A DNA stretch of 64,000 nt. Origin: Gimesia sp. (GTDB lineage: Bacteria > Planctomycetota > Planctomycetia > Planctomycetales > Planctomycetaceae). Positions within the stretch are counted from its first letter, which is position 1; every line of letters begins with the position of its first letter. The notes under the pieces are model-generated. The model had not been told where the DNA came from, made no database searches, and saw only the letters and a list, made by a program, of their open reading frames with translations. Positions 57,227 to 61,158 of this stretch are shown piece after piece. The translations under genes and the position numbers were made by a program. The stretch lies in NCBI RefSeq assembly GCF_040219335.1, contig NZ_JAVJSQ010000007.1, forward strand, positions 124,001-188,000, written 5' to 3'.

Positions 57227-57877
57227 ATGAAAATAAGCGGCTTGTCCATTGGATGGGGAGATCGACTATGGGATCAGTTGGAACCTGATCTCGAAGCACT
57301 TCAGGAAGATCAGGAACGCTCTCGTGGTTGTCTACAATTCCTGAGATATCTTGAATCAATCGAAGGCCCCGACCTGTGGGTCGGAACTTCTCACTCTACT
57401 CTCGTTTTCTTTCTTAGTGATATACAGGAAGATCATATCGAGGTTCCGTATGTGGCCTGCGTAGATATCAGTGCAGGGACCCCACCTGCCTTGTACATGA
57501 TAAGTTATCCCCTCCCACGCGAAATTCGCCCCTGGATGAAAAGGGATCCAACAGAGATCCCTGATCTGGAAGAGATCAAGAAAGATTGTTGGAAGGTATA
57601 TACACATCAAGAAAACAAGGAGGACGCAGCTGCTGCGTTATTAGGTGCGATTGCTGTCTCAGGAACCAATCCCATACGACCACAATCTGATTGGTTGTGG
57701 TATATTTGCCCCAATTGCGATCTGCACTCCCCCCATTATCAATCTCATTGTCGGCGTTGTAAGTATGTCTTTCCACCTCAGAAAAAAATGGAATTGCTGG
57801 GTCTCTTTCGGAAAATATCACTTTCTGAAGGAACAAGATCTTCTACCAAAACGAACACAGAGAATACCGAAATCTAA
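57227..57877 (+). CDS. Hypothetical protein with C-terminal zinc ribbon
   Basis: A 216-residue protein of no recognised family. The N-terminal 150 residues are alpha/beta (LKFLRYLESIEGPDL-like QFLRYLESIEGPDLWVG, STLVFFLSDIQEDHIEVPYV). A C-terminal ribbon has CPNCDLHSPHYQSHCRRC (about 165-182), a CxxC plus CxxC pair. AT-rich composition and different codon use compared with the neighbours hint at foreign origin. It lies in front of the RNA-like element at 57960-58049, but an 80-bp gap with a small hairpin separates them. Confidence 0.65.
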   Translation: MKISGLSIGWGDRLWDQLEPDLEALQEDQERSRGCLQFLRYLESIEGPDLWVGTSHSTLVFFLSDIQEDHIEVPYVACVDISAGTPPALYMISYPLPREIRPWMKRDPTEIPDLEEIKKDCWKVYTHQENKEDAAAALLGAIAVSGTNPIRPQSDWLWYICPNCDLHSPHYQSHCRRCKYVFPPQKKMELLGLFRKISLSEGTRSSTKTNTENTEI

Positions 57878-57959
57878 TTCGGGCAGGCGAACTTCCCTGC
57901 AACTTGCCCTGTCTTAAATCTGAGCTTGCTATACCCGCCGTGGCGCGGGATACTCGAAC

Positions 57960-58049
57960 ATCCGTTCGTGGGACTTGAGAGTGACTTCCGCGTGAGCATC
58001 TGCAGCTTTTCAGCCCGTCGCTGTCTGCATTCCCCGAACGGATTTTTTT
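57960..58049 (+). ncRNA. Candidate structured small RNA upstream of the vWA gene (Y-RNA-like)
   Basis: ATCCGTTCG-T-GGG (57960-57972) pairs with CCCCGAACGGAT (58032-58043) to give a 12-bp stem with one bulged T. The 59-nt interior contains a second stem (GCAGC 58002-58006 with GCTGT 58020-58024, extended by GCA/TGC), and a run of seven T (58043-58049) follows the closing stem. End-to-end pairing with a bulge, an internal hairpin and a 3' oligo-U tail is the Y-RNA layout; the alternative is a terminator or attenuator of the vWA gene, whose likely start is at 58060. TATACC at 57930-57935 is a possible -10 box but its -35 is poor. No folding programme was run. Confidence 0.5.
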
Positions 58050-58059
58050 GACTCAGGGA

Positions 58060-59538
58060 ATGACTCTGGTGACCAACGGAACCTATTCAACATCGTCTCC
58101 CGAACGAACTCGCCTGCGCGATCAGTGCGAACGGGAAGACCTCGTGATGTTTATCAACTCCTGTTTCGCCGCCACCCGGCAGAACGAGTATTATACCGAT
58201 CGGTATCTCGCCACCGTTTCGATTGAATTCCTACACCAGTACACGCTGATTAACTATCGCCTGCTTTACGCACGAACGCTGGCAGCCGGCATCAATCATT
58301 TTAACCAACTGCAGATTCTCTTTAATCTTCTCCAGTCCGGCGCGCCGGCTGATCTCACGCAGCGGTCTGAAGAAGGAGCACTGATCGCTGCTGCGCTGCG
58401 CGGACTGCCTCCCAACCGGGTGTATGGGCTATTTACACGATTGCAGCAGGCCCGAATCAATAATCGTCGCACGCGTGCCGTGATTAAGACATACCTTAAC
58501 TGGCGACGAGAACCGGATTTTGATGCCATCAAATATCGCAACAAGTTTTGTTCTGCAGCAGCACACATCCATTTTCAACTCGATGCTGAACTGGGACGGT
58601 TTCTCTTTGATCCTTCCAGCCAGAAGACTTACACGCGGCCCCTGCTCAATCAGTATCGACAGGCGCAGTACAGTGCCGCTGCCATCTACGAACTGCCCTT
58701 CACTGTCGCGGAATCACTGGCACAGAAGCATCAGATTCCTCGCGAGGTCTTCCTGCAGAAGATTCAACCGAAAATGACCGCAGCGGAAAAGATGCGCTAT
58801 CAGTCTACTGCTGCACGGACGAAAGGGGTTGAAATTGAATTTGACCTGAGTCGCGCAGGACTGACGAAACTGGCACTCTATATACTCTCGCTGAAGCAAA
58901 GCGAGCGACGGGACCGCGCTGTAGAACTGCAGGCTGCCCTGAATTCCGCTGCAACAAAAGCACTCCGTCGCGCTCCCCTCGCGCTGGGACGTGTCGCAGC
59001 CGTCCTTGATCGCAGCCGGTCTTCCCTGGGAAGTCGTGAGCGGCGAAACCGTCCACTGGGCGTGGCCCTGGCAGCCAGTTGTCTGCTCAGAAATGCAGCT
59101 CGGGAATACCGGTCTTTCTGGACACCGGAAAACGAAGAAACGGAATATGAATTTCTGACGCGACCTGCGGGACAGACGGCTCTGGCCGAACCATTGCTTG
59201 CCGCGCTGGAATGGGGGCCAGACCTGATCGTAATTGTTTCGGATGGATACGAAAACGATCCTCCCCAGCTGGTCGATCAGGTGGCGCGCGTGTACCGGAA
59301 AACGATTGGAAAAGGGAATACTCCGGAGATTGTGCATATGAACCCGGTCTTTGATGCCGATCATTATTCACCGCGTCGACTTGGCCCCACGATCCCCACC
59401 GTCGGACTGCGGGATGCAGAAGACATTCCCACCATGCTGGGCTTTGCCCGGTTCACTGCCGGAACGACGAAACTGGAGGATCTGGAAGCGTATCTCTCAC
59501 ACCGTGTCAACAGGATGCTGAACTCCGATGAAACCTGA
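58060..59538 (+). CDS. vWA protein with alpha-helical N-terminus (Ro60/TROVE-like architecture)
   Basis: A 492-residue protein. The start is taken as ATG 58060, since the TTG at 58048 sits in the T run of the upstream element; AGGGA abuts the ATG, and GTG 58069 is an alternative. Residues 1-300 are helical repeats, containing KTYLNWRREPDFDAIKYRNK near 160-180, a place where TROVE proteins have a W..KYR motif. The vWA domain from about 312 has an intact MIDAS: DRSRS (Asp317, Ser319, Ser321), Thr373 in GQTALAEPLL and Asp395 in IVSDGYEN. This order matches Ro60, which binds Y RNA and misfolded RNA. The TROVE signature itself is only weakly visible, so the assignment is inference. It overlaps the next gene by 11 bp. 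Confidence 0.75.
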   Translation: MTLVTNGTYSTSSPERTRLRDQCEREDLVMFINSCFAATRQNEYYTDRYLATVSIEFLHQYTLINYRLLYARTLAAGINHFNQLQILFNLLQSGAPADLTQRSEEGALIAAALRGLPPNRVYGLFTRLQQARINNRRTRAVIKTYLNWRREPDFDAIKYRNKFCSAAAHIHFQLDAELGRFLFDPSSQKTYTRPLLNQYRQAQYSAAAIYELPFTVAESLAQKHQIPREVFLQKIQPKMTAAEKMRYQSTAARTKGVEIEFDLSRAGLTKLALYILSLKQSERRDRAVELQAALNSAATKALRRAPLALGRVAAVLDRSRSSLGSRERRNRPLGVALAASCLLRNAAREYRSFWTPENEETEYEFLTRPAGQTALAEPLLAALEWGPDLIVIVSDGYENDPPQLVDQVARVYRKTIGKGNTPEIVHMNPVFDADHYSPRRLGPTIPTVGLRDAEDIPTMLGFARFTAGTTKLEDLEAYLSHRVNRMLNSDET

Positions 59539-60718
59539 AGATCTGCAGCAGACGATTTCGCTGAAAGGACTGAAGCTCGCTCCGTCACAAGTCCTGGGAG
59601 GAGTGCGTCTGGCGCCCGTAATACGTAAACAGGTTCGTGAAGATCTCCGTTTGACGCGGCGTCCCTACCATGAGGATATTGCCGCCGTTCAACTCGATCA
59701 GAAAACGGCATATTACTCCTACATTCCACATGCATTTATCGCGGACTGGTCAGACGATGGCTCACCGGCCGTCGCCTACGGTACACAGCTACGCCGTCTG
59801 CAGAAAAGGCAGAAAAACAGCGATGGCCGGGTTCATGACCTGGGCTTCATGACGGCGCGGGTGATGAAAAAAATGCGAAAGCGGGAAGACCGCAATCGAT
59901 TGCGGTTTCTTCCGATGGATCTTTCACTCGAAGGATTTCTTTCGCTCCATTTTGGTGGACCGGATGTGATCTGGGAAGAATACTCGCGCGCAGCAATCCG
60001 CGATGGTTTGAGCCCGCGTTGTGAGATGTCGGTTCCCGGCCGCTGGATTAAAGGGCTGGAAGATGCCCTCCGTGTTTTCGAAATTCATGAGAATCAGGTT
60101 GGTTCACTGGTTTTTGTGGGGGATGCCCTGGCGTCTGCCTTTATCGTACCTCATCCGGATGATTATCGTGATCTGCACGAAACACTGTTGACCGATGATT
60201 ACGGTGAGCTGCTCTATTTCTACGGACTTTACGCACAGGAAAACCGGTTACATCCAGCGGACATCGATGCCAAGCGGGTGGCGTCACTGGAAGACCTGCG
60301 TCGAGAAGTCAAGCGTGTGCGTGGCGACTGGTCAACGCTGCACACACTGATGTCTGATAATCTGCTGGATTGTCCGGTCCACAATGAAATGGTTTACAAG
60401 ATGGGCCCCTTTCAGTTGCAGCGGTTCATGACGGAATTGAATCCGAAGGTGGAAAACCACATCGGGGAAGCCATCGTCCGCAAGAATGGAACGTTGGAAT
60501 ATTTGAAATCGTATCGACTCTCTGCCGCCCAGTGCCGACGTGCTTATCTGCTGATGCAGCTCGCTGACAGCAACTGGTCTGTCGAAGCCTGCGCTGAAAA
60601 ACTGAGTTGCACAACTCACGAATTGATTTACCGTCTGGAAAAAGCGGGCTTCGGTCACCTGTTCCATCAGCATGTGCATGACAAAGTTCAGAGCATGCTG
60701 CGAAATGACCCCTGGTAA
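59528..60718 (+). CDS. ARPP-like protein with C-terminal Fis-like HTH
   Basis: A 396-residue protein overlapping the vWA gene by 11 bp, so co-translated. The N-terminal region (SLKGLKLAPSQVLGGVRLAP, FLPMDLSLEGFLSLHFGGPD, VPGRWIKGLEDALRVFEIHE, VGSLVFVGDALASAFIVPHP) recalls the ARPP domains reported by others in RNA-repair-like gene neighbourhoods; I recall this only roughly. Residues about 280-345 are helical. The last 50 residues, DSNWSVEACAEKLSCTTHEL with IYRLEKAGFGHL, look like a Fis-type helix-turn-helix as found in sigma-54 activators, but no AAA+ domain is present. Function unknown; nucleic-acid binding inferred. Confidence 0.65.
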   Translation: MKPEDLQQTISLKGLKLAPSQVLGGVRLAPVIRKQVREDLRLTRRPYHEDIAAVQLDQKTAYYSYIPHAFIADWSDDGSPAVAYGTQLRRLQKRQKNSDGRVHDLGFMTARVMKKMRKREDRNRLRFLPMDLSLEGFLSLHFGGPDVIWEEYSRAAIRDGLSPRCEMSVPGRWIKGLEDALRVFEIHENQVGSLVFVGDALASAFIVPHPDDYRDLHETLLTDDYGELLYFYGLYAQENRLHPADIDAKRVASLEDLRREVKRVRGDWSTLHTLMSDNLLDCPVHNEMVYKMGPFQLQRFMTELNPKVENHIGEAIVRKNGTLEYLKSYRLSAAQCRRAYLLMQLADSNWSVEACAEKLSCTTHELIYRLEKAGFGHLFHQHVHDKVQSMLRNDPW

Positions 60719-60738: not shown

Positions 60739-61158
60739 TTGACAGAGCCTCTCCGTGTAGTACCATGGGTGGCTGTTTCATCCCGCCAGGATGATTGGTC
60801 TGTTGATGTGATCGCGACCGGAGGGTTTATGGGTTATCGAGCTTTCTATTGCTGTTATAAAACCGATGAAACGCTCAGCGCGGAAGAAGCCTGTGAGATG
60901 GATCTGTCTCTCGCCGCCGATCGGATTCTGGAACTCCTCCAGGGCGATGAAGATTTCTTCGGGCTGATCGACGAACACAACAACACGCTGCAATTCCTCC
61001 GCAACGGCGAGACAATCTGGATGGAAATTCCGATTCCGGACAAGCAGGGAAGTTACGGAAAATACATCCCGCTCAGTGAAGTGAGCGCGCTGGTCGCTGG
61101 CTTACCCGCCCAGATCGATCTTAATGATTTCTCAGAAATGCAGTTTCAACCCTGGTGA
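60739..61158 (+). CDS. Small soluble hypothetical protein
   Basis: A protein of up to 139 residues from TTG 60739; ATG 60829 (MGYRAFYCC) has GGAGGG 3-4 nt upstream and is a possible shorter start. Features: WSVDVIATGGFMGYRAFYCC, DLSLAADRILELLQGDEDFF, GLIDEHNNTLQFL and SEVSALVAGLPAQIDLNDF. I recognise no family. It lies 20 bp after the ARPP-like gene, in the same direction, so it could be a third member of that operon, or an unrelated immunity-like protein. Confidence 0.6.
   Translation: MTEPLRVVPWVAVSSRQDDWSVDVIATGGFMGYRAFYCCYKTDETLSAEEACEMDLSLAADRILELLQGDEDFFGLIDEHNNTLQFLRNGETIWMEIPIPDKQGSYGKYIPLSEVSALVAGLPAQIDLNDFSEMQFQPW

Follow-up and report, generated by a model that had tools for sequence, protein, structure and literature searches.

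A divergent Ro60-like protein, its ARPP-2 partner and an upstream Y-RNA-like small RNA form a probable Ro RNP module in Gimesia and other bacteria

The closest described systems are the Ro RNPs and the operons that encode ARPP domains. In vertebrates, the Ro60 site in Y RNA is a 7-bp helix with one bulged C and a 3-nt bulge opposite (PMC4726728), and for bacterial YrlA it has been suggested that the RNA is a competitive inhibitor of an anticodon nuclease (PMC7790460). ARPP domains were defined in ARG/rhodanese-phosphatase operons, sometimes together with vWA genes, and the vWA proteins of these ARG/ARPP operons have been proposed to be peptide-binding chaperones; section 3.8 of the same paper reports ARPP beside ARG, HIRAN, WYL, and deacetylase genes and mentions neither a Ro60-like partner nor an RNA (PMC9503650).

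The locus described here lies in a window of 64,000 nucleotides, which is the whole stretch of Gimesia sp. DNA that was analyzed (contig NZ_JAVJSQ010000007.1), and all of the features described are on its forward strand. It probably encodes a divergent Ro RNP module, in which a Ro60-like ring protein is joined by a trans-acting Y-RNA-like RNA of its own and by a partner protein, ARPP-2. The main new element is the upstream RNA family, which is absent from Rfam 15 and occurs with the gene pair across several phyla. The 11-bp overlap of the genes (59528-59538) is as the initial annotation had proposed, and both reading frames are open at this place, with the stop of the Ro-like gene at 59538 and the ARPP-2 reading frame extending from 59528 to 60718. 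The first reading frame also stands, but its start, placed at ATG 58060, is probably GTG 58069 (giving a coding region of 58069-59538), because this GTG sits 9 nt after an AGGGA (58055-58059) and in a relative (L072) CTG stands in place of the ATG and the GTG is retained, again preceded by a comparable AGGA stretch. Of 67 loci with a gene for a relative of the Ro-like protein, 55 show the vWA gene followed by ARPP-2 on the same strand, and among the remaining 12 several are truncated at a contig end or contain only fragments; the pairing of the two genes is far above chance.

Pfam, NCBIfam, and PADLOC scans of the window's vWA protein give nothing useful. Pfam TROVE and vWA_Ro60 match none of the 53 Ro-like family members (the window's protein and 52 aligned relatives), and apart from one stray Pfam match in one member no family is assigned to any of them. 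A TROVE search of the same genome finds a gene at C7:9089 only, and not the Ro-like gene. The AlphaFold2 model (53 sequences; mean pLDDT 82.6) contains helices at residues 14-304 and a vWA domain from residue 309, and thus has the helical N-terminal half joined to a vWA domain that had been read from the sequence. Foldseek returns five PDB matches at E<=0.001, exclusively to Ro60/Rsr chains, and the top 10 VIA-align rows are all Ro60/TROVE structures (Z 13.1-16.8, with 399-412 residues aligned); the rows that follow are vWA-only, with Z<=11.2 and at most 175 residues. Against Ro60, TM-scores reach no more than about 0.5 and identity is 10-15%, and an hhalign comparison of the Ro-like profile with 18 TROVE proteins gives a match that is moderate only (E 5.4e-6, probability 85.7, 357 columns). 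Because these structure and profile matches come without a Pfam match, the modeled protein is described as having a Ro60 fold over its full length yet lying outside the Pfam TROVE family. The comparison with Ro60 that had been recommended therefore yields a full-length match to Ro60/Rsr with an RNA gene upstream, and not an unrelated scaffold that is never near RNA genes. The MIDAS had been called complete, and residue conservation bears this out: counting residues from ATG 58060, D317, S319, and S321 of the DxSxS motif (59008-59022) and D395 (59242-59244) are present in 53/53 aligned Ro-like proteins, and T373 is present in 51/53, with Ser in the other two.

The second protein, of which the initial annotation said only that its N-terminal region was reminiscent of ARPP domains, is an outright match to Pfam ARPP-2 (PF22549) over residues 10-293 (E 7.2e-112, 373.4 bits against a cut-off of 27). 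The Fis-like HTH proposed for the same protein fares less well. At E<0.01, HTH_8 (Fis) is found in 2/46 aligned ARPP proteins and HTH_28 in 3/46, and the window's own protein has no HTH match at this threshold in its own table; the helices of the model at residues 333-372 (60524-60643) mark a C-terminal region that may be a Fis-type HTH. The ARPP-2 structure model is of low confidence (pLDDT 69.8) and its fold search against the PDB gives no match at E<=0.001, so no fold is named for it. Three residues, E185, Q190, and G192, are conserved in 61/61 proteins of the ARPP-1 and ARPP-2 classes. A cysteine, C107, is present in 17/17 ARPP-1-class proteins, and no Cys column runs across the 44 ARPP-2 proteins; the covalent chemistry that has been suggested for ARPP is therefore not transferable to ARPP-2 (PMC9503650). 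Our literature search found neither the name ARPP-2, nor ARPP-1 linked with RNA repair, nor a treatment of at least three of ADP-ribosyl glycohydrolase, rhodanese, TROVE, and vWA together. We know of no tested activity for ARPP domains.

The RNA-like element that had been noticed upstream of the pair is real and conserved. It occupies 57957-58049 (z -3.5), in the space from the preceding gene to the vWA start, and is about 90 nt long. Its two ends pair with each other, and inward from this closing helix come one bulged pyrimidine, a short helix of GGGA with UCCC, an internal loop, another helix, and a stem-loop at the apex. In the window's copy, the closing helix is formed by 57960-57968 and a 3' strand that ends at 58043, and is followed by a bulged U (57969), the GGGA (57970-57973), the second helix, and the apical stem-loop (loop AUCUGCA), with a T-run at 58043-58049. 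An RNA model built from 48 sequences, one of which is the window's own RNA, matches 57957-58049 with 63.6 bits (E 5e-15), its sole match in the window. The RNA is found at 62 of the 67 loci, a count that uses this model of pattern-found RNAs (48 of 79 distinct), and its hosts are cyanobacteria, planctomycetes, myxobacteria, and other proteobacteria. Of the five exceptions, L022 and L040 have little sequence ahead of the gene, L068 is matched only as a 31-residue fragment, and L010 and L061 have the RNA elsewhere in the genome.

Covariation supports the structure. In the 48 aligned RNAs, double changes are seen in 18/23 pairs and number 198, compared with 56.8 after shuffling, and 92.7% of cells are paired, compared with 76.9% in shuffled and no more than 50.5% in slid controls. 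The inner core is strongly conserved, with the invariance of GGGACU and UUCCG being partly by construction because the RNAs were first found by a typed pattern that allowed up to 3 substitutions and then 2. The RNA matches no family in Rfam 15, and an earlier description in the bacterial Y RNA or RNA-repair literature is possible. At five RNA-bearing loci there is no YrlA match at E<5, and such Rfam matches as reach E<5 are chance-like and located elsewhere; at canonical TROVE loci, a search of this kind does recover YrlA. The new RNA has a Y RNA plan but, judged by the Rfam model, is not YrlA. A promoter and terminator scan gives results close to the chance level.

An anticodon loop has 7 nt with Y32, U33, R37, and A38. 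Apical loops of this kind are present in 32/48 of the RNAs, compared with an average of 1.7 when the loop letters are shuffled, although the count is inflated because the sequences are related; U33 is present in 46/48 and U35 in 38/48. Neither the window's loop, AUCUGCA, nor 7 of the 14 lineage representatives listed fit the pattern fully, the other 7 doing so, and several Gimesia copies could form an alternative 5-bp stem with a 5-nt loop. The commonest loop triplets are GUU, GUA, UUG, and GUG; a reading of these triplets as the sign of a particular tRNA was set aside, since a simple rule finds a 7-nt loop in only 40/79 sequences. ARAGORN predicts no tRNA in the window and, across the ARPP-2 loci scanned, none at the RNA, and among 60 loci tRNA genes are near the pair only at L021 and L062, away from the RNA.

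Whole tRNA-like elements are found in a sister class, in which weaker Ro-like relatives (27-35% identity) are followed by an ARPP-1 gene. The two genes are adjacent at all 14 cyanobacterial loci fetched (L217-L230; Pfam ARPP-1 checked for two) and side by side at two planctomycete loci (L077 and L079). Three planctomycete ARPP-1 loci (L231, L233, and L079) have tRNA-like elements in their upstream DNA. At L231 and L233 several of these lie inside outer helices, with a GGRACU-like start as in the ARPP-2-class RNA, and one of six elements (L231a) has no clear closing helix. Upstream of the cyanobacterial loci, ARAGORN finds no element (in 252 nt only for L227) and R1 finds none either; an Rfam search of 12 of the 14 gives a tRNA group about 1.3 kb from the L230 gene and weak matches that are probably due to chance. 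Of the cyanobacterial ARPP-1 loci, the 13 for which a long upstream stretch is available show no clear RNA beside the gene.

One reading of the apical arm casts the tip of the RNA as a decoy or bait in the form of an anticodon arm, which competes for, or reports, anticodon nucleases or tRNA-modifying attack, with the Ro-like ring and ARPP-2 handling the broken RNA; this would be a more specific form of the Ro RNP explanation. It draws on the excess of fitting loops over shuffled ones, the frequent U33 and U35, the whole tRNA-like parts of the planctomycete ARPP-1-class RNAs, and the anticodon nuclease inhibition suggested for YrlA (PMC7790460), but is weakened by the incomplete fit of the window's loop and of half of the lineage representatives, by the alternative stem in Gimesia, and by the lack of a consistent nuclease gene nearby, and we consider it possible but doubtful. 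Just as tentatively, the Ro60-like and ARPP proteins may constitute a Ro RNP clade separate from TROVE/YrlA, found mostly in complex and often multicellular bacteria, in which the RNA tip is an anticodon-arm or tRNA mimic that serves as bait for sensing or processing anticodon-loop damage.

The RNA and the Ro-like gene co-occur closely. Of 99 related genomes, the RNA is present in exactly the 8 that have a full-length Ro-like gene (8/8) and in 0/91 others. It is also present in 40/40 genomes that were drawn from the hosts of the 67 loci because they have the gene; the genome-wide searches of the relatives and of a cyanobacterial order are the fairer test, with sets that include some model genomes. 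In the cyanobacterial order (195 genomes), the gene is matched at E<1e-40 in 20 genomes and the RNA is present in 20/20, and one genome (G315) has the RNA (43.5 bits) without a gene match. ARPP-2 is matched at E<1e-40 in 19 of the 195, of which 18 have the RNA; G294, in which ARPP-2 has internal stop codons, is without it. Two RNA-positive genomes (G184 and G319) have partial genes, with no ARPP-2 among the matches listed.

At all 62 loci the RNA is upstream of the gene and on its strand, but the linkage is loose. The spacing to the vWA gene ranges from about 0 to 600 nt, another gene lies between the two at L005 and L023, two or three differing RNA copies are present at 12/62 loci, and in two Nostoc genomes of the 40 (G105, which is Nostoc sp. 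106C and contains L010, and G137) the intact RNA and the gene pair are on different contigs, and the surroundings of the RNA, covering 12.0 and 7.7 kb, contain neither a vWA nor an ARPP gene. This loose linkage suggests action in trans, and because the RNA is unlinked from the pair in the two Nostoc genomes, it is probably trans-acting. A cis-regulatory leader of the Ro-like/ARPP-2 operon (riboswitch, attenuator, or autoregulatory site), with the closing helix and T-run forming a terminator before the gene in Gimesia, would accord with the same-strand upstream position at 62/67 loci, with a T-run that stops just before the ribosome site in the window, and with the strong conservation of the inner core. 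It is unlikely, however, in view of the unlinked RNAs (which are still a minority, 2/40 genomes), the intervening genes, and the differing copies, and no other gene family was found behind the RNA in the genomes searched.

The initial annotation also suggested an RNA-surveillance or RNA-repair system. Its components hold, in that the unit contains a Ro60 fold, an ARPP partner, and an RNA gene, whereas a role in RNA surveillance or repair would follow by analogy with bacterial Ro60/Y RNA operons only, because RtcB is elsewhere in the genome (contigs C24 and C29, with the Ro-like locus on C7) and repair families are absent among the commonest neighbors. For 82 neighboring proteins, chosen from 153 with at most two per sequence cluster, the 25 commonest of 134 Pfam families do not include RtcB, RtcR, ADP-ribosylglycohydrolase, rhodanese-phosphatase, or ARG, and neither these 25 nor 25 of 41 PADLOC families reveal a further partner shared by the loci. 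No nuclease gene is consistently near the pair. Cyanobacterial loci have two companions that are regional, a protein of about 120 aa that belongs to no Pfam family (20 loci) and, upstream at 11 loci, a divergent EAD4-NACHT-HEAT gene. A role of the vWA protein as a peptide-binding chaperone in a conflict system related to ADP-ribose, its likeness to Ro60 being uninformative on RNA, would suit the definition of ARPP in ARG operons with occasional vWA genes (PMC9503650) and the EAD4-NACHT-HEAT neighbor, but is more improbable still, as the fold match includes the helical N-terminal half and is with Ro60 only, an RNA with Y RNA anatomy co-occurs nearly one to one with the gene, and neither ARG nor rhodanese-phosphatase is among the commonest neighbor families.

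If the locus is a divergent Ro RNP module, as we prefer, then known Ro RNPs suggest that the ring protein would bind the lower helix of the RNA (GYGGGACU/UUCCCC) and that the RNA would gate and tether the ring in the manner of Y RNAs; Ro60 itself takes up Y RNA on the outside and RNA 3' ends within its ring. More speculatively, the apical arm, which is anticodon-arm-like in most of the RNAs and has tRNA-like domains as its counterpart in the sister class, may offer a tRNA-like surface meant for whatever handles tRNAs or tRNA fragments. In the least certain step, ARPP-2 might act on the bound RNA or its damaged ends, or might regulate the response. A second Ro clade that brings an RNA of its own, a fixed partner, and an anticodon-like loop would be a compact, testable three-part system for which cultured planctomycetes and cyanobacteria can be used, and it bears on the role of bacterial Ro60/Y RNA complexes and on the activity of ARPP.

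The module resembles Ro60/Rsr with YrlA (RF02553), with which it shares a Ro60 fold of about 400 residues, an intact MIDAS, and an upstream hairpin RNA with paired ends. It differs in that the Ro-like protein has no Pfam TROVE match (TROVE, PF05731; vWA_Ro60, PF25045), the ARPP-2-class RNA has no Rfam match and a short apical stem-loop in place of the D- and T-arm tRNA-like domain of YrlA, and the fixed partner gene is ARPP-2. A canonical TROVE gene (C7:9089) is present in the same Gimesia genome as well, preceded by two YrlA-like matches with E values of 1.8e-7 and 0.02 that do not reach the gathering score. With its 9-bp helix and one bulged pyrimidine (C or U), the new RNA recalls the Ro60 site of Y RNA; a conserved step of 4 bp precedes its internal loop, and the 3-nt bulge of the opposite strand is not matched one to one. 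The rsr-yrlBA-rtcBA RNA repair operon (PMC7790460) similarly combines a Ro60-type protein with small RNAs that have tRNA mimicry, but the locus in the window is without RtcB and RtcA. ARPP-1 (PF20208) of the ARG/rhodanese-phosphatase operons (PMC9503650) is a homologous domain that shares E185, Q190, and G192 with ARPP-2, whereas ARPP-2 lacks its cysteine and has as its partner a Ro60-like protein with an RNA gene.

The unit of small Y-RNA-like RNA, divergent Ro60-like (Ro-like) gene and ARPP-2 gene is flanked in the window by two ORFs. Upstream and directly before the RNA is a 216-aa ORF (57227-57877), which codes for a CxxC-type tail and has weak zinc-ribbon matches, and downstream of the Ro-like/ARPP-2 pair is a 139-aa ORF (60739-61158), which has a promoter-like site at its start and for which family searches gave no match.

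A divergent STAND gene with an EAD4-NACHT-HEAT-NCC-H organization lies upstream of the RNA/Ro-like/ARPP-2 unit in 11 cyanobacterial loci (L004, L005, L011, L013, L015, L016, L023, L027, L037, L059, and L062), its domain content having been checked in three of these. A small protein of ∼120 to 134 aa without a Pfam family, family F2, is present in 20 of the loci compared (F2-type ORFs include L148:1080-1481 and L158:1614-2015), and it still adjoins the RNA where the RNA and the Ro-like/ARPP-2 pair are apart. Stop codons interrupt the ARPP-2 gene in Microseira (genome G128, locus L040), although this genome retains the Ro-like gene and a copy of the RNA.

In the sister class, the Ro-like gene is paired with ARPP-1, and the two are adjacent in all 14 cyanobacterial loci (L217 to L230), at which no clear RNA was found. 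The planctomycete Ro-like/ARPP-1 loci L231, L233, and L079 are preceded by tRNA-like RNAs, some of which are enclosed by an outer hairpin; the tRNA-Asn(att) predicted at L077/L231 is probably one of these rather than an ordinary tRNA.

The Gimesia genome also codes for a canonical TROVE/vWA_Ro60 protein, outside the window at ∼9.1 kb of the same contig (C7; locus L001). Two YrlA-like matches, both under the Rfam gathering score, lie upstream of this gene, and together they constitute a second Ro system in the genome that carries the window's unit.
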